NCBI RefSeq assembly: GCF_000730605.1
Contig: NZ_BBIS01000024.1
Coordinates: forward strand, 1 to 64,000
From: Pseudomonas monteilii NBRC 103158 = DSM 14164
Lineage (GTDB): Bacteria > Pseudomonadota > Gammaproteobacteria > Pseudomonadales > Pseudomonadaceae
Length of the DNA: 64,000 bases
Direction: 5' to 3'
Positions 73 through 15,155 of the stretch are shown here, in pieces. The translations under genes were made by a program, and so were the position numbers. A model generated the notes under the pieces. The model made no database searches, was not told the DNA's origin, and worked only from the letters and a program-made list of their open reading frames with translations. Each line of letters opens with the position of its first letter. Position 1 is the first letter of the stretch.

Positions 73-1179
73 TCAATGCCCCCGTAAAAACTCCACCATC
101 CTCCGGTTCACCTCCTCAGCCGCCTCCATCTGCACCATATGCCCAGCCTCTGGCAGCACCAGCACTTCGGCCTCCAGGCCCTCTGCGTGGCTGGCCGGGA
201 TAATCGCGTCCTTGCCACCCCACACCACCAGTGCCGGATGCTGCCCCAGCACGCTGCGCAGGTCGTGGCGCTGCCTGTCACCGTCGGCAATGGCTAATGC
301 CAGCTGGCGCAAGGCCTCATCGACACCTTCCAGGCGCTTGAACTTGAGCATGTCTTCCAGCATCTGCCGGGTGACCAGTGCCGGGTCGGCGAACAGCTGC
401 ACCATCTGCGGTTTGAGGGCGTTGCGGTTCGCGGCGGCAACAAAGCCTTGCAGGTACTGCCCATTGATTGCCTCACCCAGGCCGGCACTGGCGATCAGGC
501 TCAGGCTGGCCACCCGCTGCGGCGCCAGGCGCGCCACGTTCAGGCTGACCGCGCCACCCATGGAGTGTCCGGCCAGGTGGGCCTTGGCGATGTCCAGGTG
601 GTCGAGCAGGGCCAGCACGGTTTCGCTCAGTTCATCCAGGTCGCCCCGTTGCAGGGCCTTTGCCGACTCGCCGTGCCCCGGCAGGTCAAGGGCGATCACC
701 CGGCGCTCGGCCGCCAGCGCCGGGTGGTTGAACAGCCAGTTGTTGAGGTCGCCGCCAAAGCCGTGTACCAGTACCAGCGGCGTACCGCCTTCGCCCAGTT
801 CGAACCAGCGCAACAGGCGGCCGCCCACTTCAGCCTTCTGCGGGGTCGGCCCTTGTGCTTGGTCGGCGCCCCCTTCGGCGACGAACTCGGCCTGGAAGCG
901 CTGTACCACTGCATCGATCTCGGATTCCTCGGCTTCGCCTTCCACCACCACCGCCAGCAGTGCGCCAACCGGCAGGGTTTCATCCGGTTTGGCCACCTGG
1001 CGGCGCAATACACCACTGAACGGGGCTTCGACGCTGCTGCTGATCTTGTCGGTCTCGACGTCCAGCACCTCGTCGCCCTTGTTGATTTCGTCGCCTTCCT
1101 GCTTGAGCCAGGCGTCCACCCGGCCCTCGGTCATCGAAAGGCCCCACTTGGGCATGGTCAGGGTATGGATCTGGCTCAT
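73..1179 (-). CDS. acoC: Acetoin dehydrogenase E2 component (dihydrolipoamide acetyltransferase) fused to an alpha/beta-hydrolase domain
   Basis: This is the acyltransferase core of the acetoin dehydrogenase complex, which cleaves acetoin to acetaldehyde and acetyl-CoA. The N-terminal 80 residues form a lipoyl domain with the attachment lysine in ETDKISS (K45). From about residue 120 the protein is an alpha/beta hydrolase: VLVHGFGG, then the nucleophile elbow GHSMGG (S206), and a late histidine in EAGHMVQ. This lipoyl plus hydrolase layout is typical of AcoC and unlike ordinary E2 proteins, which carry a CAT domain. The length (368 residues) matches the family. Its ATG overlaps the acoB stop codon, so it is translationally coupled in acoXABC. 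The stretch before it (1-72) shows no complete gene. Confidence 0.95.
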   Translation of the reverse strand: MSQIHTLTMPKWGLSMTEGRVDAWLKQEGDEINKGDEVLDVETDKISSSVEAPFSGVLRRQVAKPDETLPVGALLAVVVEGEAEESEIDAVVQRFQAEFVAEGGADQAQGPTPQKAEVGGRLLRWFELGEGGTPLVLVHGFGGDLNNWLFNHPALAAERRVIALDLPGHGESAKALQRGDLDELSETVLALLDHLDIAKAHLAGHSMGGAVSLNVARLAPQRVASLSLIASAGLGEAINGQYLQGFVAAANRNALKPQMVQLFADPALVTRQMLEDMLKFKRLEGVDEALRQLALAIADGDRQRHDLRSVLGQHPALVVWGGKDAIIPASHAEGLEAEVLVLPEAGHMVQMEAAEEVNRRMVEFLRGH

Positions 1180-2198
1180 GCGGCACTCCTTGCAGCTTCG
1201 ATCACCTTGCGCACGGCAGCCTCGATCTTCGCCGCGTCAGGGATGTACAGGTCTTCCAGGGCATCGGAGAACGGCACCGGGGTGTGCGGTGCGGTGACCA
1301 TTTCGATCGGGCCCTTGAGCGCGCCGAAGGCCTTCTGCGCCACCAGCGCGCTGATGTCGGTGGCCATGGAGCAACGCGGGTTGGCTTCGTCGATCACCAC
1401 CAGTCGGCCGGTTTTTTCCACGCTTTCCAGAATGCTGTCTTCGTCCAGCGGGCTGGTGGTGCGCAGGTCCAGCACTTCGCAGTCGATGCCCTGGCGGGCC
1501 AGGTTGTTGGCAGCCTCCAGCGCCACATGCACCATGCGCCCGTAAGTGACCAGGGTCACATCGTCACCATCGCGCAGGAAGTTGGCCTCGCCGAACGGCA
1601 CGGTGTACACCTCTTCCGGCACCTCGCCCTGCATGCTGTACAGCAGCTTGTGCTCGCAGAAGATCACCGGGTCGTTGTCGCGGATCGCCTGGATCAACAG
1701 GCCTTTGGCATCGTAAGGCGAGGACGGGCACACCACTTTCAGGCCTGGGATGTGCGTCCACAGCGAGGTGAGCATTTGCGAGTGCTGGGCCGCCGCACGC
1801 AGGCCGGCGCCATACATGGTGCGCATCACCAGCGGGGTGACTGCCTTGCCGCCGAACATGTAGCGGAACTTGGCGGCCTGGTTGAGGATCTGGTCCAGGC
1901 AGCAGCCGGCGAAGTCAACGAACATCAGCTCGCACACCGGGCGCAGGCCCTGGGTGGCAGCCCCGACGGCGGCCCCGACGTAGCCGATTTCCGACAGCGG
2001 CGCGTCCAGCACGCGGCCGGGAAACTGGTGGTACAGGCCTTTGGTCACGCCCAGCACGCCCCCCCACGCGTCATCCTCGCCGGGGGCACCGGCACCGCCG
2101 GCCACGTCTTCTCCAATGATGAACACGGTGTTGTCGCGGCGCATTTCCTGGGCCAGGGCTTCGTTGATGGCCTGCTGGTAGCTGATCTTTCTTGCCAT
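1176..2198 (-). CDS. acoB: Acetoin dehydrogenase E1 component, beta subunit
   Basis: This is the beta chain of the thiamine-diphosphate-dependent E1 heterotetramer that oxidatively cleaves acetoin and passes the acetyl group to the lipoyl arm of AcoC. The 340 residues have the transketolase pyrimidine-binding fold at the N-terminus (IIGEDVA, then DAPLSEIGYVGAAVG), the conserved RAAAQHSQ stretch with the active-site histidine, and a C-terminal transketolase domain (LRTTSPLDEDSI, VIDEANP). It follows acoA after about 30 bases and overlaps acoC. Other E1-beta proteins (pyruvate or branched-chain dehydrogenases) look similar; the acoX/acoC/acoR neighbours decide for acetoin. Confidence 0.95.
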   Translation of the reverse strand: MARKISYQQAINEALAQEMRRDNTVFIIGEDVAGGAGAPGEDDAWGGVLGVTKGLYHQFPGRVLDAPLSEIGYVGAAVGAATQGLRPVCELMFVDFAGCCLDQILNQAAKFRYMFGGKAVTPLVMRTMYGAGLRAAAQHSQMLTSLWTHIPGLKVVCPSSPYDAKGLLIQAIRDNDPVIFCEHKLLYSMQGEVPEEVYTVPFGEANFLRDGDDVTLVTYGRMVHVALEAANNLARQGIDCEVLDLRTTSPLDEDSILESVEKTGRLVVIDEANPRCSMATDISALVAQKAFGALKGPIEMVTAPHTPVPFSDALEDLYIPDAAKIEAAVRKVIEAARSAA

Positions 2199-2231
2199 GG
2201 TGGTTCTCCTGTTGTTCTTGTAATCCGCGGC

Positions 2232-3209
2232 TCAGGGGTAGGCGACGTAGACGTCGGTGAGCAGGTCGGCGGGCTGTGGCTTGGGATCGGACTTGGCGCG
2301 GCGCACGGCGTCCTCGATCAGGTCTTCGATGCGGGCGTCGATGGCGTCCAGTTGCTCGGCAGTGAGCAGGCCGGCACGGGTGGTCTTGTTGCGGAACTGC
2401 ATCAGGCAATCGCGGGATTCGCGCAGGTTCTTCACTTCATCCGGGGCGCGGTAGGTTTGTGCATCGCCTTCGAAGTGGCCGTAGTAGCGGCTGAGCTTGA
2501 CCTCGATCAGCGACGGGCCTTGCCCGGAGCGTGCGCGCTCGATGGCAGCGCCAGCGGCCTCGTACACCGCAAAGAAGTCGAAGCCGTCGATGGTGACACC
2601 CGGCATGCCGAAACCGGCGGCGCGGTCGGCAATATGGTCGCAGGCAACGGACCAATTGGAGGCGGTGGCTTCGGCGTAGCCGTTGTTCTCGGCCACGAAG
2701 ATGCAGGGCAGGTTCATGATTGACGCCATGTTCATGGCCTCGAACACCGCACCTTCGTTGGAGGCGCCATCGCCGAAGAAGGCCACCGATACATCGTCGC
2801 GGCCTTTGATCTTGGCGGCCAGCGCTGCCCCGGCTACCAGCGGGGCGCCAGCGCCGACGATGCCGTTGGCGCCGAGCATGCCTTTCTCCAGGTCGGCAAT
2901 GTGCATCGAGCCGCCCTTGCCGCCACATACGCCGGTCTTCTTGCCGTAGATCTCGGCCATCATGCCGTACACGTCCACGCCCTTGGCGATGCAGTGGCCA
3001 TGACCACGGTGGGTTGACGCGATGCAGTCGCTGTCGCGCAAGTGGGCCATGACCCCGGCGGCCGAGGCCTCTTCGCCAGCGTACAGGTGGACGAAACCGG
3101 GGATCTCGCCCGTGGCGAATTCCACATGCAGGCGTTCTTCGAACGCACGGATGGTGCGCATCACTTCATAGGCATGCAGCAGTTGTTCGGTACTCAGTTG
3201 ATTGGACAT
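2232..3209 (-). CDS. acoA: Acetoin dehydrogenase E1 component, alpha subunit (thiamine diphosphate-binding)
   Basis: This 325-residue subunit binds the thiamine diphosphate cofactor of the acetoin-cleaving E1. The binding signature runs from GDGASNEG (residues 146-153) to ENNGYAE (NN at 175-176). The N-terminal region STHRGHGHCIAKG and the glycine-rich GGKGGSMHIADLEKG are also typical of E1-alpha. I chose the ATG giving MSNQLSTEQ because a GGAG ribosome binding site lies upstream of it; the frame stays open 37 codons further but has no such site. It is the second gene of the acoXABC operon, 22 bases after acoX. Confidence 0.95.
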   Translation of the reverse strand: MSNQLSTEQLLHAYEVMRTIRAFEERLHVEFATGEIPGFVHLYAGEEASAAGVMAHLRDSDCIASTHRGHGHCIAKGVDVYGMMAEIYGKKTGVCGGKGGSMHIADLEKGMLGANGIVGAGAPLVAGAALAAKIKGRDDVSVAFFGDGASNEGAVFEAMNMASIMNLPCIFVAENNGYAEATASNWSVACDHIADRAAGFGMPGVTIDGFDFFAVYEAAGAAIERARSGQGPSLIEVKLSRYYGHFEGDAQTYRAPDEVKNLRESRDCLMQFRNKTTRAGLLTAEQLDAIDARIEDLIEDAVRRAKSDPKPQPADLLTDVYVAYP

Positions 3210-3231
3210 CTTGTTGTTCTCCAGGGTTGTC

Positions 3232-4287
3232 TCAACGCGGGGATGCAGAATGCAGCCGGTGGCCGCGCGGGACGGCCAGCAGGTGGTGGCGGGCGGCGTG
3301 CGCCAGTACGGCCTCGACATCCACGCTTAGCGGGCCTTGGTGGTCGAGGGTGATGGTGGGCGTGTCGTGCTCGGCGAATTCGATCTCGCGTTCGCCGTCC
3401 AGGGCCAGGGTGCCGCTGGTCAGGCTCAGGCGATGGGCAACGCCAGGAGTCAGCGGGCCGCTGGCGGTGATGCCGCAGGCTTGCAGCAGGCCGGGTGCCA
3501 GCGGCGCGAGCAATGTTTGTTCGGCGCCGGGATTCAGGCGTACCCAGGCACCGTGCAGCTCGTGGCGTGACACTGGGCACCACAGGCCGCACAGGGCCGA
3601 CAGGCCGATGGCATGGGGTTCGGCAAAGCAGGCGAAGACTTCGCACAGGTCCTCGCTGCGGCTGAGCGCACGGGCGCCTATGAAGCGCTGTGGCGACACG
3701 GCCACTTCGACCAAGGCCCATTCGGCCAGCTGTTGCTCGGGCACTCTTACCAGCAGGCGCTTGTTACGGCGCAGGCCGATGCTGGCGGGCACCAGGCCGC
3801 TGGCGAACAGGCCACCGGCAAGGCCAGCGCTGGTGGCTTCGCGCAGTTCGGGGAACGCATTGTTGGTGCCGGTGGATAAGGTCAGCAGCGGCACGTCACC
3901 GGCCTCGGCAGCGACTGCCTTGTGGGTGCCATCGCCACCGAGCACGGCGATCATCGCCACGCCGCGCTCGACCATGTGCCGGGTGGCCTGGCGGGTGTCG
4001 GCAACGGTCTGGGTCAGCGGCAGGTCGAGTATTTCGAGGGCCGGCCAGTGCTGGTCACGGGCGCCCGGGCCCTGGCTGGCCTTGAGCACGGCAGCAGCGA
4101 TGCCGGTCATGTCGCTGGGCAACAGCACCTGGCCGATACCGGTGGCACCGAAGGCCGCCAGCAGGCGCTGGATGGCCGAGGCCTTGTCGGTGCTGGAATA
4201 GAGCCCGGCGTTGGCGGTCAGGCGGCGCAGGTCGCGGCCAGAGGCAGGGTTGGCAATGATCCCGACAATCGGGGCGGGTTGCGGCAT
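3232..4287 (-). CDS. acoX: AcoX protein, NAD-kinase-like fold, first gene of the acetoin operon
   Basis: This 351-residue protein has the GGDGT signature (117-121) of NAD kinase and diacylglycerol kinase folds, preceded by IANPASGRD near the N-terminus. It travels with acetoin dehydrogenase operons, but its exact role is, as far as I recall, not settled; a part in cofactor supply or in acetoin uptake of the pathway is only a guess. I use the ATG giving MPQPAPIVG because GAGG sits about 7 bases ahead; a TTG nine codons further upstream has no site. It is the promoter-proximal gene, about 24 bases from the predicted transcription start at the sigma-54 promoter. Confidence 0.9.
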   Translation of the reverse strand: MPQPAPIVGIIANPASGRDLRRLTANAGLYSSTDKASAIQRLLAAFGATGIGQVLLPSDMTGIAAAVLKASQGPGARDQHWPALEILDLPLTQTVADTRQATRHMVERGVAMIAVLGGDGTHKAVAAEAGDVPLLTLSTGTNNAFPELREATSAGLAGGLFASGLVPASIGLRRNKRLLVRVPEQQLAEWALVEVAVSPQRFIGARALSRSEDLCEVFACFAEPHAIGLSALCGLWCPVSRHELHGAWVRLNPGAEQTLLAPLAPGLLQACGITASGPLTPGVAHRLSLTSGTLALDGEREIEFAEHDTPTITLDHQGPLSVDVEAVLAHAARHHLLAVPRGHRLHSASPR

Positions 4288-4320
4288 GGCGCACCTCGTA
4301 TTTTTGTTTGCCAAGGCAGG

Positions 4321-4336
4321 AGCAAGCGCGGTGCCA
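4321..4336 (-). promoter_or_regulatory. Sigma-54 (-24/-12) promoter of acoXABC
   Basis: On the minus strand the sequence TGGCACCGCGCTTGCT matches the RpoN consensus TGGCAC-N5-TTGCW exactly. The GC of the -12 element is near 4323, so transcription should begin around 4311, leaving a short leader before the acoX ATG at 4287. A sigma-54 promoter fits the activator AcoR encoded next door. Confidence 0.85.
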
Positions 4337-4414
4337 GCTTTCTTTGATTTGGCCGAAATGGCCGCGCTAGAGGGCTTTGGTTGCGTTTTGGCATGCCCTT
4401 GCCACGGTGCTGGC

Positions 4415-4473
4415 GAGACGCCGGGTGCCAGCGCCAGGCAGGCATTGCCGAGACGCTGAGACGCGGCGTCTCA
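4415..4473. promoter_or_regulatory. Putative AcoR upstream activating sites
   Basis: A perfect 17-bp palindrome, TGAGACGCGGCGTCTCA, lies at 4457-4473. Its half-site GAGACGC is repeated directly at 4415-4421 and 4450-4456. The sites are roughly 100-160 bp upstream of the predicted acoX transcription start and about 100 bp upstream of acoR. That is the usual distance for an enhancer-binding protein, so activation of acoXABC and autoregulation are both plausible. Binding by AcoR is inferred. Confidence 0.6.
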
Positions 4474-4570
4474 AGCCAGCCGGTAATCACACAGTGCTTG
4501 TCGGGGCATGCCCAGAGGCGCTTAATGGCCAGACAACGATAAAAACAGCAACGAGAACCGGAGGGCCTGA

Positions 4571-6424
4571 ATGCTTGCCGCGAACTCCCGAGCCCATGTC
4601 GACTGCGTCAGCAGGGTGTTGAAGAATGCCGACCGCCTGCCACAGGCGCCGGTGCCACCGCTGATCCTCGACTCCTGGCGCCGTTCCATGGAGCTGTACC
4701 GCCTCGACCCTGGGTCCCAGCAGGGGCCGCGTATCCTTTCTCAAAGCCTGCTCAACGAGTGCCGCGAACGCGCCGAACTGTTCCTGCGCATCGCCAGCGA
4801 TGCTGTGGCACGCCTGCACGAGCGGGTACGCGGTGCCGACTACTGCGTACTGCTGACCGATGCCCAGGGGCGCACCATCGATTACCGGGTCGAGTCGGCC
4901 ATCCGCAACGACTGCCGCAAGGCCGGGCTGTACCTGGGCACCTGCTGGTCGGAAGGCGAGGAGGGTACCTGCGGCGTGGCGGCGGTGTTGACCGCCAAGG
5001 CCCCGGTCACCGTGCACAAGCGGGACCACTTCCGCGCTGCGTTCATCGGCCTGACCTGCACGGCGGCACCGGTATTCGACCCGCTGGGCGAGTTGTTGGG
5101 CGTGGTGGATGTGTCAGCCTTGAAGTCGCCAGATGACCGCCGTAGCCAGCATCTGATCCGCCAACTGGTGGAGCAGACCGCCCGCGAGATCGAAAACGCC
5201 TTTTTCATGCACAGTGCCCAAGGCCACTGGGTGATGCGCGCCCACGGCACGCCGGGTTATGTGGAAAGCCAGCCGGACTACCTGCTGGCTTGGGATGCCG
5301 ATGGCCGCCTGCAGGCGATCAACAGTCTGGCGCGGCAACGGCTGGTGGAGCGCCTGGGGCGCTTGCCCGAGCATATTGGTGAGCTGTTCGACATTGACCA
5401 GCTACGCCGGGTGAGCGCGTCGTCGGCCCAGCGCCTACCGGGTCTGGGGGGGCTGTATGGTCGGGTCAGCGCCCCACGGCAACGCCAGCGCGCGCAGCCG
5501 TTGCGCCAGGCCCAGGACGCACGCATCGAACAGCACCTGCGCTTGGCCACGCGGGTCAAGGACTGCAATCTGGCGGTACTGGTGCAAGGGGAGACCGGGG
5601 CTGGCAAAGAAGTGTTCGCCCGCCAACTGCACCAGCAAAGCCAGCGCCGGGATGGCCCGTTCGTCACGCTGAACTGTGCGGCCATTCCGGAAAGCCTGAT
5701 CGAGAGCGAGCTGTTTGGCTACGTGGCTGGAGCCTTTACCGGGGCCTCCAGCAAAGGCATGCAAGGGCTGTTGCAGCAGGCCGATGGCGGCACGCTGTTC
5801 CTCGATGAAATCGGCGACATGCCGCTGAACCTGCAAACGCGCCTGCTGCGGGTGCTGGCCGAGGGTGAAGTGGCGCCGTTGGGCGCCGCGCGGCGTGAGC
5901 GTGTGGACATCCAGGTGATCTGCGCCACTCATCGCGATCTGGCCGCGATGGTTGAGGACGGGCGCTTTCGTGAAGACCTGTACTTCCGCCTGGCCAATGC
6001 CCGCTTCGAGTTGCCGCCGCTGCGGGAACGTGAGGATCGGTTGGGGTTGATTCATCAGCTGCTGGCCGAGGAGGCCGGTGCGTGTGCTGTCGAGGTGGTG
6101 TTGGCCGATGATGCGCTGCAAGCATTGCTGGTTTACCGTTGGCCGGGGAACTTGCGTCAGCTGCGGCAGGTGTTGCGCTATGCCTGCGCGGTGAGTGAAG
6201 GCGGGCAGGTGCAATTGCAGGACTTGCCGCAAGAGGTGCGCGGTGAAGCGGTTGCTTCGCCTGAGAGCAGCGTGTCTTGCCCGGCCCGGCAGTTGTTGCT
6301 GGATGCTCTGATTCGCCATCGCTGGAAACCGGCCGATGCGGCGCGGGCGTTGGGGATATCGCGGGCGACGCTGTATCGGCGGGTGCATGAGCACCGCATC
6401 GAAATGCCGCGCATGAAGGGATAG
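4571..6424 (+). CDS. acoR: Sigma-54-dependent activator of acetoin catabolism
   Basis: This 617-residue enhancer-binding protein should activate the divergent acoXABC operon at its sigma-54 promoter when acetoin is present. The first 250 residues contain a GAF-type sensor region. The AAA+ domain begins near residue 320, with Walker A GETGAGKE at about 340, the sigma-54 contact loop GAFTGA near 386 and FLDEIGDMP as Walker B. A Fis-type helix-turn-helix (ADAARALGISRATLYRR) closes the protein. The ATG has GGAGG 8 bases ahead. The gene is intact: its TAG stop lies 20 bases before the ICE attachment repeat, so the insertion removed only whatever terminator it shared with accC. Confidence 0.95.
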   Translation: MLAANSRAHVDCVSRVLKNADRLPQAPVPPLILDSWRRSMELYRLDPGSQQGPRILSQSLLNECRERAELFLRIASDAVARLHERVRGADYCVLLTDAQGRTIDYRVESAIRNDCRKAGLYLGTCWSEGEEGTCGVAAVLTAKAPVTVHKRDHFRAAFIGLTCTAAPVFDPLGELLGVVDVSALKSPDDRRSQHLIRQLVEQTAREIENAFFMHSAQGHWVMRAHGTPGYVESQPDYLLAWDADGRLQAINSLARQRLVERLGRLPEHIGELFDIDQLRRVSASSAQRLPGLGGLYGRVSAPRQRQRAQPLRQAQDARIEQHLRLATRVKDCNLAVLVQGETGAGKEVFARQLHQQSQRRDGPFVTLNCAAIPESLIESELFGYVAGAFTGASSKGMQGLLQQADGGTLFLDEIGDMPLNLQTRLLRVLAEGEVAPLGAARRERVDIQVICATHRDLAAMVEDGRFREDLYFRLANARFELPPLREREDRLGLIHQLLAEEAGACAVEVVLADDALQALLVYRWPGNLRQLRQVLRYACAVSEGGQVQLQDLPQEVRGEAVASPESSVSCPARQLLLDALIRHRWKPADAARALGISRATLYRRVHEHRIEMPRMKG

Positions 6425-6741: not shown

Positions 6742-6984
6742 TCAGCTTGGCTTCGGCGGCGCGGCCTTGCCCGCGCCTCCCTTCCTGAATCCCCGATCTC
6801 CGACCATGAAGGCTTCTAGCATGTGCGGAATTAGCACCGTGGCATCGACCGCCTCGCCGTAGGTCTGCGCGTGCAGCGTAGCGTAGCGGTCGAGGTCGGC
6901 TTTCAGGCTGGCCGGGCAAGCAAAAGTCAGCTTCGTGGATTCCGTTTTCGGCAGCGGCCCGAGCCGTAGCTTGCGCGTCGTCAT
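6742..6984 (-). CDS. DUF2274 protein, last gene of the trb operon
   Basis: This 80-residue protein starts MTTRKLRLGPLPK and matches the small DUF2274 family that follows trbI in Tn4371-like ICEs. The core (KLTFACPASLKADLDRYA) resembles a ribbon-helix-helix DNA-binding fold, so a regulatory role is possible but unproven. Its ATG overlaps the trbI stop codon (ATGA), so it is translated with trbI. The C-terminus is basic and rich in Ala, Pro and Lys. Confidence 0.75.
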   Translation of the reverse strand: MTTRKLRLGPLPKTESTKLTFACPASLKADLDRYATLHAQTYGEAVDATVLIPHMLEAFMVGDRGFRKGGAGKAAPPKPS

Positions 6985-8261
6985 CGCGAAGTCCCCCTGT
7001 TGAAGAAAAGTGGCTGGTACGGCCGCAGCACCAGATCGCGGTTGACGATGATGCGAACCGGCAAGCCGGGGCGCTCCGTCAAGGTGGGCTGGATGTTGAG
7101 GTTGCGCCGGGTCATCTCCTGACCGACCTGATTGATGCTGTCCTGGGCGCTATCGCGGCCGGCGATGATGACGCGATCACCGTCCTGCCGGTTCTCCGGC
7201 GCAGCCAGTTCGGCACCGATGCCCAGTAGCGTCGTCAGTGCCGCACCGGCAAAGACGCGATCCCAATGCCAATCCACATCATCTTCCAAGCCGGCGTAGC
7301 CGGCCGGATCGGTGCCGGCCAAGTTGTCGAGCTTGAGCGAAGACGTGTCGGGCAGGATGATCCGGTTCCACACCACTTGCACGCGGCTCTGCCCGTAGCT
7401 GACCTGGCTGTTGTATTTGCCCAGGATGCGTGACCCCTGCGGGATCAGCAGGAACTTGCCGGTAGCCGTGTCATAGACCGGCTCCGTCACTGTGGCGATC
7501 ACATCGCCCGGCAAGTCCGACTTGATGCCCGTCACCAGCGCCCCGGCGACCACCGTTCCGGCCATGACCTGATACGGCGACGCCGGCAGCGTCAGGTTGC
7601 CGGAATCACGGGCTTCCGTGGTTCCGGCTTTCTGGAATGCCTCTTTCTGGTCTTGCCGGTTCTGCACGGCGGTCGGGTCGGCGGGCTGGGCCGCCGTCGA
7701 CGCAGGCCCGGCCGCCAGCGGGTCGAAGGCCGCATTGGCGGTGAAGCCCGGCGCAGCGGCTACCTGTGTCTGCGCCACCGGCGCGGCCTTCTGCGAACCA
7801 GAGCGGAAGAACACCGCCGATGCCGCTGCTGCTTCGGCTTCCTTGCGCAACGCGTCGTTGGGGTCGTTGCCGGGGGCCGCGTAGGCGGCCGTCACCGGCT
7901 GCTGCGACTTCACAATGGCCGGGCCAAGATCGCCTGGCAGCGGCGGCCCCAACTCCGGCACGGATGCCGCCAAGGGGGGCGGCAGCTTCGAGTAGTCCGC
8001 CGGCAGCGCGTCCAACCCTTCGGACTTCGAGACGCGATCGACGTTGTAAAGCTCGGTCTGCTCGCCTGCACCGCGCCGCTGCGGTTGCAGCGACCACATC
8101 AGCGCGCCGAGCACAGCGACCGAGAGACCGCCGACGAGGATGGCCAGCGTGCGCCGGTTCAGGCGCGTGACCGGGCGCGGTTGGGCGCGCAGCGCAACTG
8201 CCTCGGGTGCCACCTTGCCCGCATGCGGCGTGGCGAGGTCGGGAGTGTCGTCCTGGCTCAT
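6981..8261 (-). CDS. trbI: Mating-pore protein TrbI (VirB10-like)
   Basis: TrbI spans the inner membrane and periplasm and joins the outer-membrane ring of the type IV secretion channel. The 426 residues have a short cytoplasmic N-terminus, one transmembrane helix near residues 37-57 (TLAILVGGLSVAVLGALMW), a Pro/Ala-rich periplasmic linker and a C-terminal VirB10 beta-barrel domain (TVVAGALVTGIKSDLPG, IPQGSRILGKYNS). It lies between trbG and DUF2274 and overlaps the latter. Confidence 0.93.
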   Translation of the reverse strand: MSQDDTPDLATPHAGKVAPEAVALRAQPRPVTRLNRRTLAILVGGLSVAVLGALMWSLQPQRRGAGEQTELYNVDRVSKSEGLDALPADYSKLPPPLAASVPELGPPLPGDLGPAIVKSQQPVTAAYAAPGNDPNDALRKEAEAAAASAVFFRSGSQKAAPVAQTQVAAAPGFTANAAFDPLAAGPASTAAQPADPTAVQNRQDQKEAFQKAGTTEARDSGNLTLPASPYQVMAGTVVAGALVTGIKSDLPGDVIATVTEPVYDTATGKFLLIPQGSRILGKYNSQVSYGQSRVQVVWNRIILPDTSSLKLDNLAGTDPAGYAGLEDDVDWHWDRVFAGAALTTLLGIGAELAAPENRQDGDRVIIAGRDSAQDSINQVGQEMTRRNLNIQPTLTERPGLPVRIIVNRDLVLRPYQPLFFNRGTSR

Positions 8262-8263
8262 GG

Positions 8264-9256
8264 TCAGTTCCTCCGCGCCAAGCCATCCGTGCGTTCGATA
8301 CGCACCACGTCACCCTTGTCGCCGCCCAGGCGCAGTTCGGCCGCGCCGAACAGCCGATCCACGATGTAGTAAGGCGAGCGAAAACGGTAATTCACCAGTT
8401 GTCCGTCGCCCTGCGCGCCGATGACGAACAGCGGTGGCAGCTCGCCTTGGGCGATTCCCGGCGGGAACTGGATATAGACCTTCTCGCCATCGTCGAAGGC
8501 GCGCAGCGGCTTCCACGGCGGATTGCTGCCTGAGACGGAATATCGGAAGCGGATCTTCTCCAGCGACAGTCCGGTATCGACCGGTGCGGCGGCGCTAGCC
8601 GCCTGCGACTGGCGCTGCAAGGCCAACATCCGGTCTTTTGGGTAGTCCCAGGACACCGACGCCATCCATGCCTTTTCCGTCGAGGTCAGTTCCAGCAGGT
8701 ATGTTCTGCGACTGGTGGTGATGACCAAATTCGTCTTGAGGCCTGAGCGGATGGGCTTGACCAGCACATTGATGCGCATCGCGTCGCCGCTGCCGCTGGA
8801 CGTGTCACCGACGATCCAGCGCACGGTATCGCCGGCTGCGACCGTCACTAGTTCCTCGCCCGGCTGCAAGGAAACCACGGTCACGCGTCCCGGCGCGGCA
8901 TAGACTTGGTAGAGCGCACCATCGGTGAAGGGCCACACCTGAATCGCATTGACGTAGCCCTCGCGCGTGGGCGCGATGCGCGCCTCGGCATTGGCACGGG
9001 AAACGCGCACCTTCTCATCGGCCGGCTCCGGCTTAGCCGGGGCCGCGTCCAACTCGTGCAGCGGCTTCAACTGCGCTGGCAGCGCCAGCGGCTCGGGCAT
9101 GGCGACGACTTCCACTGGAGCAGGCGGCTCCGGCAGCGGCTGTGCCTGCACCGGCTCATCGAGCGAAATGGACGGAGGCGGCTTGCCCTGCGAAGCGCAG
9201 CCCGACAGGGCCACCACGGTCAGCGCGAAAGCGTATAAGCGGAAAGACAGGTTCAT
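8264..9256 (-). CDS. trbG: Mating-pore protein TrbG (VirB9-like), lipobox-bearing
   Basis: TrbG forms part of the outer-membrane core complex with TrbI. The protein has 330 residues; its N-terminus (FALTVVALSGCASQ) carries a lipobox, so the mature protein may be lipid-anchored. The VirB9/CagX region runs from about residue 95 (IQVWPFTDGALYQVYAAPGRV) through FRYSVSGSNPPWKPLRAFDDG to the C-terminal beta region. Its start overlaps the trbF stop codon, in keeping with a single operon. Confidence 0.92.
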   Translation of the reverse strand: MNLSFRLYAFALTVVALSGCASQGKPPPSISLDEPVQAQPLPEPPAPVEVVAMPEPLALPAQLKPLHELDAAPAKPEPADEKVRVSRANAEARIAPTREGYVNAIQVWPFTDGALYQVYAAPGRVTVVSLQPGEELVTVAAGDTVRWIVGDTSSGSGDAMRINVLVKPIRSGLKTNLVITTSRRTYLLELTSTEKAWMASVSWDYPKDRMLALQRQSQAASAAAPVDTGLSLEKIRFRYSVSGSNPPWKPLRAFDDGEKVYIQFPPGIAQGELPPLFVIGAQGDGQLVNYRFRSPYYIVDRLFGAAELRLGGDKGDVVRIERTDGLARRN

Positions 9257-9957
9257 GGCTTGGCTCCTTCAGAAGAATCCAGTTCGCGGCTCCACGACAG
9301 GCCGTTGACGTAGATACCCAGCGGGTTCTTGCGCAGGCGCTGTTCGGTGCGCGGGGTTTGCAGGACGGTGGAAAGCACCGCGTTCCATCGCTCGGTCCCG
9401 GCGGGGGCACCGTTGATGAACCGTTGCTCCGTCCAACGGACGTTGAACGAGGCATCGCTGGCGCGTACCACGCTGGTGATCTGCACCGTCACCGACTCGC
9501 GGCCAACACGGGCGAAAGGATCGTTCTTGCTGGCGTAGTCGTTGAGCACCGCCGCGCCTTTGTCGGTGGTGTAGTCGTAGGCGTCCAGCCAGTTTTGCCG
9601 CACCACGATGGGATCGATAGACAGCGAGCGCACCAGCGTCACGAAGCGCGCCAGGTGGTGCGCGATCTGCGCATCGGCGGGCCGGTACGGCGTGGCGGCT
9701 TCGCCGACGGCGCGCACCTGCCCCGACTGATCGACCTCGATGACGTAAGGGGTGACGATGGACTGCGCCGAGCGCCACACCAGGCCACCGGCCATCAGCA
9801 GCGCAAGCGTGAGGCAGCCGAAGGCCATAAAACGCCAGTTCTTGGCCTGGACGCGGGCCGAGCCGATGCGCTCGTCCCACACCTGCGCGGCGGATTGGTA
9901 CGGGGTGGCAGGCTGCGGCGTGTCGGCATAGCGCACCTGCGGGCGTTTGAATCGCAT
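9253..9957 (-). CDS. trbF: Mating-pore protein TrbF (VirB8-like)
   Basis: TrbF is the inner-membrane assembly protein of the conjugative channel. The 234 residues carry one transmembrane helix (about 34-52, MAFGCLTLALLMAGGLVW) followed by a periplasmic VirB8 domain (TPYVIEVDQSG, WTEQRFINGAPAGTERW). I chose the ATG giving MRFKRPQVRY because AAGGAG lies just upstream; the frame is open for 81 more codons of shadow sequence over the end of trbL. It overlaps trbG. Confidence 0.92.
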   Translation of the reverse strand: MRFKRPQVRYADTPQPATPYQSAAQVWDERIGSARVQAKNWRFMAFGCLTLALLMAGGLVWRSAQSIVTPYVIEVDQSGQVRAVGEAATPYRPADAQIAHHLARFVTLVRSLSIDPIVVRQNWLDAYDYTTDKGAAVLNDYASKNDPFARVGRESVTVQITSVVRASDASFNVRWTEQRFINGAPAGTERWNAVLSTVLQTPRTEQRLRKNPLGIYVNGLSWSRELDSSEGAKP

Positions 9958-9986
9958 AGGGTTCTCCTTGGTGGTCAGGTATCGGG

Positions 9987-11351
9987 TCACGCATCGGGGC
10001 GCAGGCTTGGGCCTTGCCCTGAGCCGCCGCCGTCGCCACTGCGCAGCGTGTGGGCTGCGGTGGTTGCGGCATGGGTGATCTGCTGGCGGCGGTGCATCCG
10101 CTTTGCCCAGGCGGGTTGCTCTTGCTTCGGCGCGCTGGCTGCGCCTTCGCCTGCGGCGGCCTGGCCGGAACCGGCAGCGCCGACATCCGCACCGTTCCAT
10201 CCTGCCCGGAAGGAGTCGGCCACCTTCTGACCGGCAGCGGAAGCGCCCGATGCAGCTCGGCGGCCTGCCGCTTGCGCGCCGGTCTTGGCGACATTGCCGA
10301 GGCCCGCAGCCGCGCCTTTAGCCCCGCCGCCCGCAGCGGCGGAACCGGCCTGGAATGCGGACTTGGCGCTGCTGGCCGCCGACGTGGCGGCGCGTGCGCC
10401 GCTCCCGGCCAGCTTTGCGGCGGCCGGGGCCATGCGTGCGCCCGCCATGACGGCACCGCCCACGCCGGTCGCGGCGGCACCGATGGCAACACCCGTGCCT
10501 ACCGCGCCGACGGCAGCGCCCGCCATCGCACCCGCGCCGAGCTGCGGCGCACCGGACACAAGGCCCGTGGCGATGCCGGGGCCGAAGATGCCCAGCGCCA
10601 GCAAGGCAAGCGAAGCCAGCATCACGACAAGCGCATGGTCGATGGAAGGCTCGTCGGGATGAACCTGGAACTCCGCGAACAGGCCCGAGCCGATGCCGAC
10701 GATTACCGCCAGCACCAAGACCTTGATGCCTGACGAAACCACATTGCCGAGCACCTTTTCCGCGAGGAACGAGGTTTTGTTCCAGAGCGCAAACGGGATC
10801 AAGACGAAGCCGGCAAGCGTGGTCAGCTTGAACTCGATCAACGTGATGAAAAGCTGAACCGCGAGCACGAAGAAACAGAGGATCACCACCAGCCAAGCGA
10901 TGAACAGCACCACGATGGGGTCGAGGTTCACGAACACTTCGGGGAAGCCGGCCATGTCACCGATCTGGTCGAGGATCGGCGCAGCGGCGTCGATGCCGGT
11001 CTTGGCAAGCCGACCCGGCTGCAAGAAGTTCTCCATCGTTATGGCCGAGCCAGTGGCGGTGATGCCTAGCCCGGCGAACGAGCGGAACACGATGCTCGAC
11101 AGCCAATTGAAGTTACCGATGATGTAGGCGAAGGCACCGACGTAAAGCACCTTGCGCAGCAGCTTGGCGATCACGTCCTCGCCCTGGCCGGTCGCATGGC
11201 TCATGGCCCAATACAGACCGGCAATGGTCATGTCGATGACAATGAGAGTGGCCGTCAGGAACGCGACTTCGCCTTGCAGCAGACCGAAACCGGAGTCGAT
11301 GTAGCGCGAGAAGGTATCGAGGAATCTGTCGATGATCGTTACGTCGTTCAT
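9987..11351 (-). CDS. trbL: Mating-pore polytopic membrane protein TrbL (VirB6-like)
   Basis: TrbL is the polytopic inner-membrane component of the channel. Residues 1-260 hold several hydrophobic segments (VAFLTATLIVIDMTIAGLYW, PIVVLFIAWLVVILCFFVLA, KVLVLAVIVGIGSGLF, VVMLASLALLALGIFGPGI). The rest, about residues 265-430, is a low-complexity Ala/Gly tail, as is common in TrbL proteins of this family. Its ATG overlaps the trbK stop codon. Confidence 0.92.
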   Translation of the reverse strand: MNDVTIIDRFLDTFSRYIDSGFGLLQGEVAFLTATLIVIDMTIAGLYWAMSHATGQGEDVIAKLLRKVLYVGAFAYIIGNFNWLSSIVFRSFAGLGITATGSAITMENFLQPGRLAKTGIDAAAPILDQIGDMAGFPEVFVNLDPIVVLFIAWLVVILCFFVLAVQLFITLIEFKLTTLAGFVLIPFALWNKTSFLAEKVLGNVVSSGIKVLVLAVIVGIGSGLFAEFQVHPDEPSIDHALVVMLASLALLALGIFGPGIATGLVSGAPQLGAGAMAGAAVGAVGTGVAIGAAATGVGGAVMAGARMAPAAAKLAGSGARAATSAASSAKSAFQAGSAAAGGGAKGAAAGLGNVAKTGAQAAGRRAASGASAAGQKVADSFRAGWNGADVGAAGSGQAAAGEGAASAPKQEQPAWAKRMHRRQQITHAATTAAHTLRSGDGGGSGQGPSLRPDA

Positions 11352-11674
11352 GGCGTGTCCTCCGCAGCGGCGAGCGACGCATCACCTTCCGGCGCGTCGT
11401 CGGTTGGCGTGTCGAAACTCGCCGGAATCGGCGGCAGTTCTGCCAGCGTCCGGTATTCGTCCGGCCCAGTCTGGCCGGTGAAGAAGCGCCGCCGGAAGGC
11501 TTCGGCAGCGGCGCGACAGGTGTCTTCGCCTGCGGTTTGCCGGTCGGCTGCGCATTGGGCGCGCAGCGCCTTGAGCCGCACGGGATCGGCGGCCAAGGTG
11601 GCGGTCAGGTCTTCAGCCGGCTGCTGGCCGCATGCGGTCAGCAGCACGGCCAGCAGGACAGGAACGCATCGCAT
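11348..11674 (-). CDS. trbK: Entry-exclusion lipoprotein of the TrbK type
   Basis: This 108-residue protein starts with a lipoprotein signal (VPVLLAVLLTACGQQ, lipidated Cys at 15). Entry-exclusion proteins in this position block redundant transfer into cells that already hold the element. The mature part has two spaced cysteines (QCAADRQTAGEDTC) and an arginine-rich RRRFFTG segment. The same pattern appears in the EexN protein at 19347-19622. It sits between trbJ and trbL as in other Tn4371-like operons. Confidence 0.8.
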   Translation of the reverse strand: MRCVPVLLAVLLTACGQQPAEDLTATLAADPVRLKALRAQCAADRQTAGEDTCRAAAEAFRRRFFTGQTGPDEYRTLAELPPIPASFDTPTDDAPEGDASLAAAEDTP

Positions 11675-11686
11675 GGCCGCCTCCCG

Positions 11687-12424
11687 TCAGTTGTTGTAGA
11701 AGTTGACGGACTGCGGTGTGTACGGCGTGCCGGTGCCCAGGAAGCGCCGCCGCACTTCGCGGGCGCGCTCGGTGGCCGCTGCCTGCCGCGCCAGCTCCAG
11801 CGAGGCCGCCCTGTCTTGTGTGATCTGGAGCTGCTGGGCCTGGATGGACTGCTTGGCCTGCAAGGCGAGAAGCTGGTTCGTTGCCTGCATCGCTTGCAGC
11901 GCACCCGTGGCCGATTGGCTTTGGCTCACGAGGTCGGCCAGCGCGCTTTCGTCTTGCGTCAGGTTCTGCGACACCTGCGCCTGCATCCGCATCGCGGTGT
12001 GCAGGCCGTCGAGCGTGTTCTTCCAGCGTTCGCGTGCGTCCTGTGCCATGCGGTCGCCGCTGATGGTGGCGGCGTACTGCTCCGGGTACAGGCGCGAGAA
12101 CGTGGCATCCATGCTCTGCACGTCGTAGGCCAGCCCTTGCGCCTCGGCAATCAGGCGTTCAGTCGTGGCGAGCGTCGAGCGCAGCCGGTTGACGATGTTG
12201 AAGTCGAGATTCGCCAGGTTGCGCGCCTGGTTCATCAACATCTGCGCTTCGTTCTGGAGCTGGTTGATCTGGTTGTTGATCTGCTCCAGCGTGCGGATGG
12301 CAGTCAGCGTGTTCTGCACCAAGTTGACGGGATCAACGAAAGTGAGCGCCGCCGCTGGCTGAGCGAGCATCAGCGAGCCGGCCAGCGCGGCGGCGAGCGA
12401 AACGGAAAGTACACGGGTCTTCAT
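11687..12424 (-). CDS. trbJ: Mating-pore protein TrbJ (VirB5-like)
   Basis: TrbJ is a secreted or periplasmic component of the mating pilus. The 245-residue precursor has a Sec signal peptide (VSLAAALAGSLMLAQPAAA) and a long helical, Gln-rich coiled-coil body (LEQINNQINQLQNEAQMLMNQ). It ends in RRRFLGTGTPYTPQSVNFYNN, a motif also seen at the end of the EexN lipoprotein of this element. I chose the ATG giving MKTRVLSVS, which overlaps the trbE stop codon as ATGA; 33 further upstream codons are shadow sequence. Confidence 0.9.
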   Translation of the reverse strand: MKTRVLSVSLAAALAGSLMLAQPAAALTFVDPVNLVQNTLTAIRTLEQINNQINQLQNEAQMLMNQARNLANLDFNIVNRLRSTLATTERLIAEAQGLAYDVQSMDATFSRLYPEQYAATISGDRMAQDARERWKNTLDGLHTAMRMQAQVSQNLTQDESALADLVSQSQSATGALQAMQATNQLLALQAKQSIQAQQLQITQDRAASLELARQAAATERAREVRRRFLGTGTPYTPQSVNFYNN

Positions 12425-14871
12425 GGCGAAATCTCCAGGGGTTGAGTAGCGAGGAAAGAAGCCGCCGACGGCGAGGACGGCAGCAGGTCGGCGGCCCAAT
12501 CGAGGCCGCGATGGCGTAGCCACGCACCGGCGAAGCCGGGAGCGCCGGCCTGCGTCAGCACTCGGTCAATGTCGCGTTGGTCTTGCGGTGTGGATGCGCC
12601 CGAGAAGGCGAGCGCGGCTGGCCCCAGGTCGAGGTCGAACAGACGATTGCCCAGGCGCGATTGGTAGTAGTAGTCGCGCTTGGGCTGCGCGGTGGCGACG
12701 ATTTCGATTTGCCGACTGTTGAGGCCAAAGCCCTCGTAGACCGTGCGAATCTGCGGCTCGGTCGCCTGCGGGTTGGGCAAGAAAATCCGGCTCGCGCAGC
12801 TTTCGATGATCGCGGGCGCGATGGTCGAATCCTTGATGTCGGCAAGCGACTGCGTGGCGAAGATCACCGACACGTTTTTCTTGCGCAGAGTTTTCAACCA
12901 TTGCCGGATGCGTGCCGCGAAGGACGGTTCATCAAGGAATAGCCAGGCTTCATCGAGAATCAGCAGCGTGGGAGCACCGTCGAAACGTGCATCGAAGCGG
13001 GCGAACAAGTAGCGCAGCACCGCTTGCACGGCGGCGGGGCTGTGCATTAGCTCTTCCATCTCAAAGCCCTGCACGTCGCCGCTGCCGAGCCGGTCGCGGT
13101 CGGCATCCAGTAGCTTGCCGTGCGCGCCGCCCAGCACATACGGCGACAATGCCTGCCGCAGCGCGTTCGATTGCAGCAGCACCGAAAGCCCGGTCATCGT
13201 GCGCTGCTCCACCGGCGCACCAGCGAGGCTGCCGAGCGCCGACCAAATGGCGGCTTTCTCGTCGGGGCCGACGGTCACGCCTTCATGCAGCAGGCGGCCT
13301 TCGATCCACTCGGCGGCCCAGGTGCGATAGCCTTCGCTGTCGATACGGGCCAAGGGCTGAAAGGCAATGGCGCCGTCCGCGCCGAGGTCGTAGTGTTCGC
13401 CGCCCAGGCCCAGCACCGTCGCCCGCATGGATCGCCCCATGTCGAAGGCGAAGATGCGCGAGCCGCCATAGCGGCGGAACTGCAAGGCGAGCATCGCCAG
13501 CAGGACAGATTTTCCCATGCCCGTCGGCCCCGCGACCAGCGTATGCCCCACGTCGCCGATGTGCGTCACCAGCCGGAACGGCGTCGCGCCATCCGTGCGC
13601 GTGACGATCAGCGGCGGGCCGTCGAGATGGGCGTTTTTCTCCGGCCCAGCCCACACGGCGGACACCGGCATCATGTGCGCCAGATTCAGCGTCGAGACGA
13701 TGGGCTGGCGCACGTTGGCATAGGCATTGCCTGGTATGGACGACAGCCACGCATCGACTGCATTTAAGGTTTCGGGGATGGTGACGAAGCCACGTCCTTG
13801 GATGACACGTTCCACCATGCGCAGCTTTTCGTCGGCTACGGCAGGGTCGTCATCGAACACCGTCACCGTGGCGGTGAGGTAGCCGAAGGCGACTTGATCG
13901 CTGCCAAGCTCTTGCAAGGCGGCATCCGCGTCGGCCGCCTTGTTGCTGGCATCCGTGTCCACCAGCGGCGATTCCTGCTGGAAGATGGTTTCGCGCAGTA
14001 GCGCAATGACATTCTTCCGTTTCGCAAACCACTGGCGACGCAGGCGGCCCAGCTCCTTTTCCGCCTCGGCTTTATCGAGGCAGAGAAACCGGGTACTCCA
14101 GCGATAGGCAAAGCCCAGGCGATTGAGGTCGTCCAGCAGGCCCGGCCAGGTCGAGGTCGGAAAGCCCCGCACCGACACCACGCGCAGATGCTGGTCACCC
14201 AGCATGGGCGCAAGGCCGCCGACTAGGGCGGAATCGGCCAGCAGTGCGTCGAGGTGGAAAGGCACCTCGGGCACGGCCAGCCGGTAGCGCCGCGTGGACA
14301 CCGTGGCGTGAAGATAAGTCAGCGTCGCGGCATCGTCCAACCAGACGATTTCTGGCATCACGCCATCGAGCAGGTCGAAAACCCGATCCGTTTCTGCCAG
14401 GAAGGCGTCAAGCCGACCGCGCCAGTCCACACCATCGCCCGGCGCGTGCTCGTAGAGCAGCTTGGCTGCACGAGCGCGGGATTCCTCCGGCGGCAGATAG
14501 GCTAGCGTCAGGTGATAGCTGCTTTCGTAGTGGTTCCCCGATTCCTCAAAGGCAGCGCGGCGTTCTTCGTCCACCAGCCAGGACAGCGGTTCGGGAAAGT
14601 CGGAATGCGGATAGTCCGCGGCCGACTGGCGCTCGGCTTCCACGAACAGCGCCCAGCCCGAACCCAGCCGGCGCAACGCGTTGTTTAGCCGTGCCGTCGT
14701 GGCGATCAATTCGCCCTGCGTGGCGCTGTCCAGATCAGGCCCGCGAAAGCGCGCCGTGCGCTGAAACGAGCCATCCTTGTTCAGCACCACGCCCGGCGCG
14801 ATCAGCCCAGCCCAGGGAAGCCAGTCGGCCAGCAAGGCGGGCCGCTGGCGGTATTCGGCAAGGTTAAGCAT
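12421..14871 (-). CDS. trbE: Conjugation ATPase TrbE (VirB4-like)
   Basis: TrbE is the large hexameric ATPase that powers assembly of the secretion channel and pilus. The protein has 816 residues. Walker A is AGPTGMGKSVLL in the C-terminal half, Walker B is LLILDEAWLFLDEP, and the glutamine motif is FATQSLADI. The N-terminal half is the CagE/TrbE/VirB domain. I chose the ATG giving MLNLAEYRQRP, since the 30 upstream codons overlap trbD in another frame. It lies between trbD and trbJ. Confidence 0.95.
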   Translation of the reverse strand: MLNLAEYRQRPALLADWLPWAGLIAPGVVLNKDGSFQRTARFRGPDLDSATQGELIATTARLNNALRRLGSGWALFVEAERQSAADYPHSDFPEPLSWLVDEERRAAFEESGNHYESSYHLTLAYLPPEESRARAAKLLYEHAPGDGVDWRGRLDAFLAETDRVFDLLDGVMPEIVWLDDAATLTYLHATVSTRRYRLAVPEVPFHLDALLADSALVGGLAPMLGDQHLRVVSVRGFPTSTWPGLLDDLNRLGFAYRWSTRFLCLDKAEAEKELGRLRRQWFAKRKNVIALLRETIFQQESPLVDTDASNKAADADAALQELGSDQVAFGYLTATVTVFDDDPAVADEKLRMVERVIQGRGFVTIPETLNAVDAWLSSIPGNAYANVRQPIVSTLNLAHMMPVSAVWAGPEKNAHLDGPPLIVTRTDGATPFRLVTHIGDVGHTLVAGPTGMGKSVLLAMLALQFRRYGGSRIFAFDMGRSMRATVLGLGGEHYDLGADGAIAFQPLARIDSEGYRTWAAEWIEGRLLHEGVTVGPDEKAAIWSALGSLAGAPVEQRTMTGLSVLLQSNALRQALSPYVLGGAHGKLLDADRDRLGSGDVQGFEMEELMHSPAAVQAVLRYLFARFDARFDGAPTLLILDEAWLFLDEPSFAARIRQWLKTLRKKNVSVIFATQSLADIKDSTIAPAIIESCASRIFLPNPQATEPQIRTVYEGFGLNSRQIEIVATAQPKRDYYYQSRLGNRLFDLDLGPAALAFSGASTPQDQRDIDRVLTQAGAPGFAGAWLRHRGLDWAADLLPSSPSAASFLATQPLEISP

Positions 14872-14882
14872 GGCGGCGTCTC

Positions 14883-15155
14883 CTACACGTCCAGCAGCGG
14901 CTTGTGCTTGATGTGCCGGGCGAAGACCTGCATGAACTGCGGATCGACCCTCGCGCCCCACACGGCCAGCGAGTGACCGACGATCCAGAGCACTACGCCA
15001 GGAATCCAGAGTTGCAGGCCCAGCCCGACGGCAGCGGCTAGCGTGCCGTTGGCAATCGCCACCGTGCGCGGTGCGCCGCCCATCAAGAGCGGCTCGGTCA
15101 GCGAGCGATGTAGCGGCACCTCGAAGCCGGCCGCGAAGCTATCCGGGCCACTCAT
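14883..15155 (-). CDS. trbD: Mating-pore membrane protein TrbD (VirB3-like)
   Basis: TrbD is a 90-residue inner-membrane protein of the channel. It begins with the conserved VPLHRSLTEPLLMGGAPR stretch, followed by a hydrophobic hairpin (about residues 34-65, ANGTLAAAVGLGLQLWIPGV). The ATG giving MSGPDSFAAG overlaps the trbC stop codon. Its position between trbC and trbE and its length fit the family. Confidence 0.9.
   Translation of the reverse strand: MSGPDSFAAGFEVPLHRSLTEPLLMGGAPRTVAIANGTLAAAVGLGLQLWIPGVVLWIVGHSLAVWGARVDPQFMQVFARHIKHKPLLDV

Follow-up and report, generated by a model that had tools for sequence, protein, structure and literature searches.

Organization of the acoX-acoR intergenic region

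The window analyzed here, the whole 64,000-nucleotide stretch at the start of contig NZ_BBIS01000024.1 of Pseudomonas monteilii NBRC 103158, opens with an acetoin locus in which acoXABC, the operon for acetoin dehydrogenase, is divergent from acoR, the gene of an AcoR-type sigma-54 activator. The segment between them at 4321-4473 is very probably an enhancer-promoter module of acoXABC, in which AcoR is predicted from the sequence to bind paired dyads and to activate a sigma-54 promoter. The features of the locus are as follows.

73-3215, minus strand: acoA, acoB and acoC (acetoin dehydrogenase), which follow acoX and reach almost to the start of the contig
3235-4287, minus strand: acoX, first gene of the operon, ATG at 4287, with a Pfam NAD_kinase match
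4321-4336, minus strand: sigma-54 -24/-12 promoter TGGCACCGCGCTTGCT, a 16/16 match to TGGCACN5TTGCW; predicted transcription start near 4310
4369-4374, minus strand: conserved hexamer CGCTCT, in this genome CCCTCT, placed 38 bp ahead of the T of TGGCAC; from a column profile and scans
4415-4429, minus strand: second dyad, reading GGCACCC G GCGTCTC along the acoX strand, with its strong arm at 4415-4421 and its weak arm at 4423-4429
4450-4456, minus strand: lone tandem half-site GCGTCTC, its GTCTC kept in 103 of the 113 genomes compared below
4457-4473, symmetric: main dyad TGAGACGCGGCGTCTCA, the predicted AcoR site, a 17-bp palindrome with core GAGACN5GTCTC at 4458-4472
4571-6424, plus strand: acoR, with GAF domain, sigma-54 interaction domain (GAFTGA) and Fis-type helix-turn-helix (HTH; LGISRATLYRRV)

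Read along the minus strand, the order is TGAGACGCCGCGTCTCA (4473-4457), GCGTCTC (4456-4450), GGCACCCGGCGTCTC (4429-4415), CCCTCT (4374-4369) and TGGCACCGCGCTTGCT (4336-4321), followed by a leader containing AACAAAAA and then the acoX start codon at 4287. The neighbors of acoR are the acetoin dehydrogenase genes; acoB and acoC score above NCBIfam cut-offs, and acoA matches E1-alpha models below theirs. AcoR itself has the domain set of its class, namely a GAF sensor, a sigma-54 interaction domain with GAFTGA and a Fis-type HTH.

The promoter has GG and GC doublets 10 bp apart inside TGGCAC-N5-TTGCW and is the sole exact match to that pattern in the 64 kb. The initial annotation called it an exact consensus match, which holds for these 16 positions and is slightly generous against the longer sigma-54 consensus, yTGGCACGrNNNTTGCw, from which it differs by one base (C for G after TGGCAC). 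With one mismatch allowed, the window contains two matches to the shorter pattern against 3.3 expected from shuffles, so that the promoter match alone is not beyond chance. The main dyad is an exact palindrome and, with two mismatches allowed, still unique in the 6.3-Mb genome; at up to three mismatches, in the window only, at least one match arose in 41 of 100 shuffles. GAGACGC words are not enriched (10 in the window, 15.3 expected), and a 58-bp span holds four of the ten. The two additional copies that had been proposed as extra half-sites, at 4415-4421 and 4450-4456, are both there and differ in kind, the far one being an arm of the second dyad and the other a lone tandem half-site. Each GAGACG/CGTCTC half-site doubles as a BsmBI site.

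Conservation and spacing of the dyads and the promoter

Genomes for comparison were picked by the AcoX protein, not by DNA. acoX is present in 76 of 398 genomes of the genus and in 50 of 398 genomes of the family (six genera), with 13 overlapping, so that 113 distinct genomes were used; these are related to each other, and thinning at 80% identity leaves 67. Each site was taken as the best-scoring position in a set range. Conservation upstream of acoX in relatives had been named beforehand as a point on which the proposed site was to stand or fall, and GAGACN5GTCTC was found there in 113 of 113 Pseudomonadaceae genomes from six genera and in 67 of 67 thinned sequences, as against two of 6,700 dinucleotide-shuffled regions. 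It is this conservation that lifts the palindrome above chance. The full TGAGACN5GTCTCA is present in 109 of the 113, and the promoter matches at 16 of 16 positions in 108 and at 15 or more in 112. Among named loci, the best 80 of 409 relatives were compared as well, and all 80 have dyad and promoter together; P. aeruginosa PA7 and Azotobacter vinelandii are included, and P. putida KT2440 itself is not. A divergent AcoR orthologue was present in 76 of 76 genus genomes, and a reading frame for a GAFTGA regulator in 37 of 37 added loci.

Within the main dyad, GAGAC/GTCTC is the invariant core and the inner GC is variable. The middle five bases take 13 forms among the 67 thinned sequences, which rules out GAGACGC as the true half-site; of the recognition sequence first proposed for AcoR, the palindrome and its association with that regulator (16 of 16 carriers, below) survive, with GAGAC as the core. 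The second dyad retains at least one exact arm in 108 of 113 genomes, and in Pseudomonas the promoter-side arm is the strong one. The ten genomes of genus g277 read GAGACGA-N-TCGTCTC at the main dyad, a change in each arm, and at the second dyad their strong arm is the other one (exact GAGAC in nine genomes, one mismatch in the tenth), the promoter-side arm carrying one or two mismatches in all ten. A symmetric change combined with swapped arm strength is the behavior that would be expected of a dimer site.

The geometry is also nearly fixed. From the start of the main dyad to the promoter T, the distance is 136 bp in 77 of 113 genomes, 137 in 19, 138 in 10 and 135 in three, in keeping with the enhancer distance assigned to the palindrome at the outset. 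Four exceptions, named via exact sequence match, are 9-10 or 22-23 bp shorter than usual: 126 bp in P. palmensis, 127 in A. vinelandii, 114 in Pseudomonas sp. BBP2017 and 113 in P. donghuensis; two named loci (L162, L167) also have 126. Between main and second dyad the distance is 43 or 42 bp, and 34 in A. vinelandii. The shortenings fall in different intervals and amount to approximately 9, 10 and 12-13 bp, roughly whole helical turns, and can be traced to about three independent length changes (-10 in the P. palmensis group, a further -12 to -13 in P. donghuensis and BBP2017, and -9 between the dyads in A. vinelandii). With about three events, a limitation of spacing changes to whole helical turns is suggestive only. 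The distance from promoter to acoX varies in its own right, being 104 to 145 nt in loci L065-L104 except L096, 182 nt in L106 and about 49 nt in the P. putida group. No conserved block resembling the integration host factor (IHF) consensus WATCAANNNNTTR stands out in the aligned column profile, and no dedicated IHF scan was run.

A conserved hexamer between the dyads and the promoter

The elements listed in the initial annotation are all present, and one further conserved element was missed there. In 97 of 113 genomes CGCTCT, with no more than one mismatch, precedes the promoter T by 37-39 bp; the counts at two control places are two and none. The 16 genomes in which it is missing from that position are the ten of g277, a further three (G142, G091, G296), and three more (G226, G356, G007) in which it is closer to the promoter by about one helical turn. 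The butanediol, porin and paralogue promoters that were read (described below) have it at the same position, exactly or within one mismatch. An earlier search with an extended motif at one mismatch gave mixed matches (13 of 20 genomes) and was replaced by a search for the spacing pattern across 60 genomes and 13 gap lengths, which misses the window's own site, reading CCCTCT. That search returned 38 matches in 33 genomes, 30 at the aco-like gap and eight elsewhere. All 30 at the aco-like gap are AcoR-class promoters, and a seemingly foreign match, on contig C1 of G126, is the own operon of the AcoR paralogue; the eight at other gaps are probably chance.

CGCTCT belongs to the AcoR promoter module. 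The chances appear even that this hexamer, which precedes the -24 T by 37-39 bp, is a new promoter element confined to the AcoR class of sigma-54 promoters, where the activator in a second mode or a looping or architectural protein would read it, and that together with the dyads (43 bp) and the promoter (136 bp) it makes up a rigid module in which spacing can change only by about whole helical turns and which AcoR and its paralogue use across separate operons. A more tentative possibility is that CGCTCT is a third, altered AcoR contact and not the site of a separate protein. The exclusive occurrence of the 30 matches at the aco-like gap before AcoR-class operons would fit such a contact, as would the shift by about one turn toward the promoter in G226, G356 and G007; its letters are however unlike GTCTC, a mirror arm is lacking, and the element is absent from G142, G091 and G296 and from all ten genomes of g277, where the dyads are retained. 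As a third full dyad it was rejected for want of a conserved left arm, and as a sigma-54 site on the other strand by reasoning from the aligned rows, without a scan.

Occurrence of the same module before other genes

Genomes with acoX (34), genomes lacking it (35) and those of a regulator test (32) were hand-chosen from the lists. TGAGACN5GTCTCA occurs in all 34 acoX genomes and is single-copy in 33, with two copies in G816 and, in G780, a single copy away from the aco locus. It also occurs in three of the 35 genomes lacking acoX (G188, G004, G022), which have acoR, acoA and acoB; there a further dyad precedes an adjacent gene for a short-chain dehydrogenase/reductase (SDR), which in G188 scores above the acetoin reductase cut-off.

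Dyads combined with a promoter were found in 62 of 398 family genomes and, for the reversed control, in none of 398. The 62 comprise all 50 acoX genomes and 12 others, of which three have acoR-acoA-acoB without acoX, four a zinc (butanediol-type) dehydrogenase, and five an SDR-monooxygenase operon beside an AcoR paralogue. Protein comparison confirmed acoA and acoB without acoX at 6/6 loci, the dehydrogenase at 4/4 further loci and a porin at 4/4, one of them cut by the locus end. A fifth zinc dehydrogenase promoter was found among the acoX-lacking genomes, in G004 (L319); the encoded enzyme is 96-98% identical to the other four, its nearest solved structure is (R,R)-butanediol dehydrogenase 6ie0, and it has no NCBIfam match above a cut-off. 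These dehydrogenase promoters are unlinked to acoR in all five genomes, lying on another contig in four; in G165, dehydrogenase and acoR share a 6.1-Mb contig at about 3.4 Mb one way and 2.7 Mb the other if it is circular.

In four g287 genomes, including A. vinelandii, an OprD-family porin gene lies behind a second promoter of this kind, with a dyad-to-promoter distance of exactly 136 bp and a leader of about 310 nt in A. vinelandii. This Azotobacter-type porin, behind two AcoR-type dyads and a sigma-54 promoter, is seen at 5860-5997 of L320 and in L361, L363 and L285; an acetoin-induced porin would be new to us. The AcoR paralogue (about 60% identical) is divergent to an operon of SDR, flavin monooxygenase and aldehyde dehydrogenase-like genes in L351, L352, L353, L362, L364 and L386, and this operon has the same module, with dyads GAGACATAACGTCTC or close to it.

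The dyad also follows the regulator. Sixteen of 16 chosen carriers encode AcoR (71-87% identity) or the paralogue (60-61%), whereas among 16 chosen non-carriers the best identity to AcoR is at most 47%, three being without a match at E 1e-100.

Outside the Pseudomonadaceae, comparison was made with 12 of 35 plasmid records with acoX relatives. Recognition helix SRATLYRR (two Mycetohabitans) accompanies TGAGAC-N4-GTCTCA, SRMTLYRR (three Caballeronia) accompanies GTGACA-CC-TGTCAC, and DR[ST]T[IV]HR (four alphaproteobacteria) accompanies GCAACA or GCCACA dyads. Natural changes in the HTH helix may thus be linked to changes in the site, GAGAC belonging with the first helix, and a helix-to-site code drawn from these few loci is a lead. 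No AcoR-type regulator was found nearby in three of the 12 loci, among them L259, which still has a similar dyad-like word. In two Paracoccus plasmids (L252 3711-4901, L259 3722-4858), the gene divergent to acoX is annotated as a sigma-54 (RpoN) paralogue, no AcoR-type regulator was seen in the locus, and the extrapolated acoX start is preceded at 29 bp by a TGGCACN5TTGCT promoter; this RpoN paralogue may be a dedicated sigma-54 for one operon.

AcoR as the predicted reader of the main dyad

AcoR is well supported as the predicted reader of the main dyad because carriers encode it or its paralogue in 16 of 16 cases and because Bacillus AcoR sites hold the same core. In the mechanism proposed, AcoR, with its GAF sensor, would bind the main dyad TGAGACN5GTCTCA and also the weaker second dyad, 43 bp nearer the promoter and about four helical turns away between centers. 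With inducer, it would loop to a sigma-54 RNA polymerase waiting 136 bp downstream, at the -24/-12 element, and would open the promoter with ATP. Measured from its center, the main dyad is also about 32 bp ahead of the probable -35 hexamer of acoR, a position from which AcoR could adjust its own synthesis.

Several observations weigh against this reading. The second dyad is imperfect, with both arms within one mismatch in only 13 of 113 genomes and no exact arm in five. Some aco promoters in genomes without acoX look damaged (TGTGC at -12 in G188 and G004, TGGCCC at -24 in G022), and in the same three no sigma-54 match of at least 15/16 was found near the dyad that precedes the acetoin reductase-type gene. 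Mycetohabitans has the same recognition helix and TGAGAC words in a different layout. Finally, a class-wide AcoX search found acoX only in the genome under study (1/369), so that evidence beyond the Pseudomonadaceae rests on the 12 of 35 plasmid records.

The dyad is close enough to the acoR promoter to serve a repressor or activator of acoR, and it might be read by another regulator, such as a repressor of acoR or of the operon, with AcoR acting elsewhere in the intergenic region. This is improbable, since sigma-54 promoters that are unlinked to acoR have the same dyad pair at a distance of 136-137 bp, all 16 carriers encode either AcoR or the paralogue with 60% identity, and the core is shared with Bacillus AcoR sites as quoted in the literature. 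Still further from likely is that the palindrome is conserved for its structure, as an RNA hairpin, terminator or repeat element, and not as a protein site. The 8-bp inverted repeat is perfect and could pair into a hairpin in a read-through transcript, but the palindrome is upstream of both predicted transcription starts, its middle varies while its outer arms are constant in 113 genomes, its distance to the promoter is nearly fixed, and the word, single-copy in 33 of 34 acoX genomes, is no dispersed repeat.

The module gives a concrete candidate recognition sequence and geometry for AcoR in Pseudomonadaceae and a predicted regulon that extends beyond the aco operon to butanediol-type dehydrogenases, the Azotobacter-type porin and an acetoin reductase-type gene. 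The natural spacing variants are ready material for looping studies, and the module could be used in acetoin sensors.

Other features of the locus

Two further features flank the module.

4301-4308, minus strand: AACAAAAA, part of the acoX leader, which fits the Crc/Hfq CA motif AAnAAnAA; from motif comparison
4497-4526, plus strand: probable sigma-70 promoter of acoR, CTTGTC (4497-4502), 18 bp, CTTAAT (4521-4526), from recurrence

AAnAAnAA lies within the last 45 nt of the acoX leader in 42 of 113 genomes (0.4 expected from single-base shuffles), and examples of the Crc/Hfq-type CA motif are also found in P. aeruginosa aco. The hexamers before acoR recur in most of 30 rows (of 33 thinned sequences), and CTTGTC-N18-CTTAAT is probably its sigma-70 promoter. 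The acoR leader is A-rich and resembles Crc motifs. A sigma-54 promoter for acoR itself was rejected, the best matches in 76 genomes reaching 11-14 of 16 positions; seven of the 12 best matches shown share TCACAC[AG]GTGCTTGTC at -84 and lack the GG doublet.

Trb-type conjugative transfer genes (TrbI, TrbE and others) occupy 6981-14961 of the window and start about 550 bp after acoR, so that the acetoin cluster is bordered by a mobile element. The 64-kb window has no tRNA gene.

Comparison with known systems

In NorR promoters, three enhancer sites of one activator stand in a fixed array before a sigma-54 promoter. The module described here is alike in its fixed multi-site array and differs in sequence, signal and spacing. 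Literature searches returned no footprint of a Pseudomonas AcoR, nor a description of its recognition sequence, of the double-dyad geometry or of the CGCTCT element; subscription papers were outside their scope, and this is no proof of absence. What is already in print is the P. putida AcoR operon and the Bacillus core site.

In P. putida, the AcoR iModulon is given as acoX, acoABC and bdhA (PMC10943186), and the five genes of KT2440 acoXABC-bdhA (PP_0556-PP_0552) as transcribed together (PMC8427195), an operon and regulator type that are the same as here; no AcoR recognition sequence is given in the passages on the KT2440 operon. In P. aeruginosa, the promoter of acoR is described as responding to acetoin (PMC9249247), which fits the autoregulation suggested above.

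Sites outside Pseudomonas can be compared as they are quoted in secondary sources. A Phytobacter AcoR site identified by gel shift, ACGACACAGTTCGCGAA, is without GAGAC, and the Bacillus sites, CAGTTTGAGAC and GACAAAACGAGACAGATGTCTCATTTTGTC, both have it (PMC12648084). With the AcoR sites of B. subtilis and B. thuringiensis (Ali 2001 and Peng 2020, via PMC12648084 and PMC10018347), the present locus has in common AcoR, an acetoin promoter of the sigma-54 family and the GAGAC/GTCTC core (GAGACAGATGTCTC), the main dyad being an inverted repeat of the same kind. The Bacillus site as quoted has a 4-bp middle where the one here has 5 bp, and in the present locus, unlike Bacillus, that core is built into an array of two dyads 43 bp apart, with 136 bp to the promoter, a tandem half-site and the CGCTCT element.
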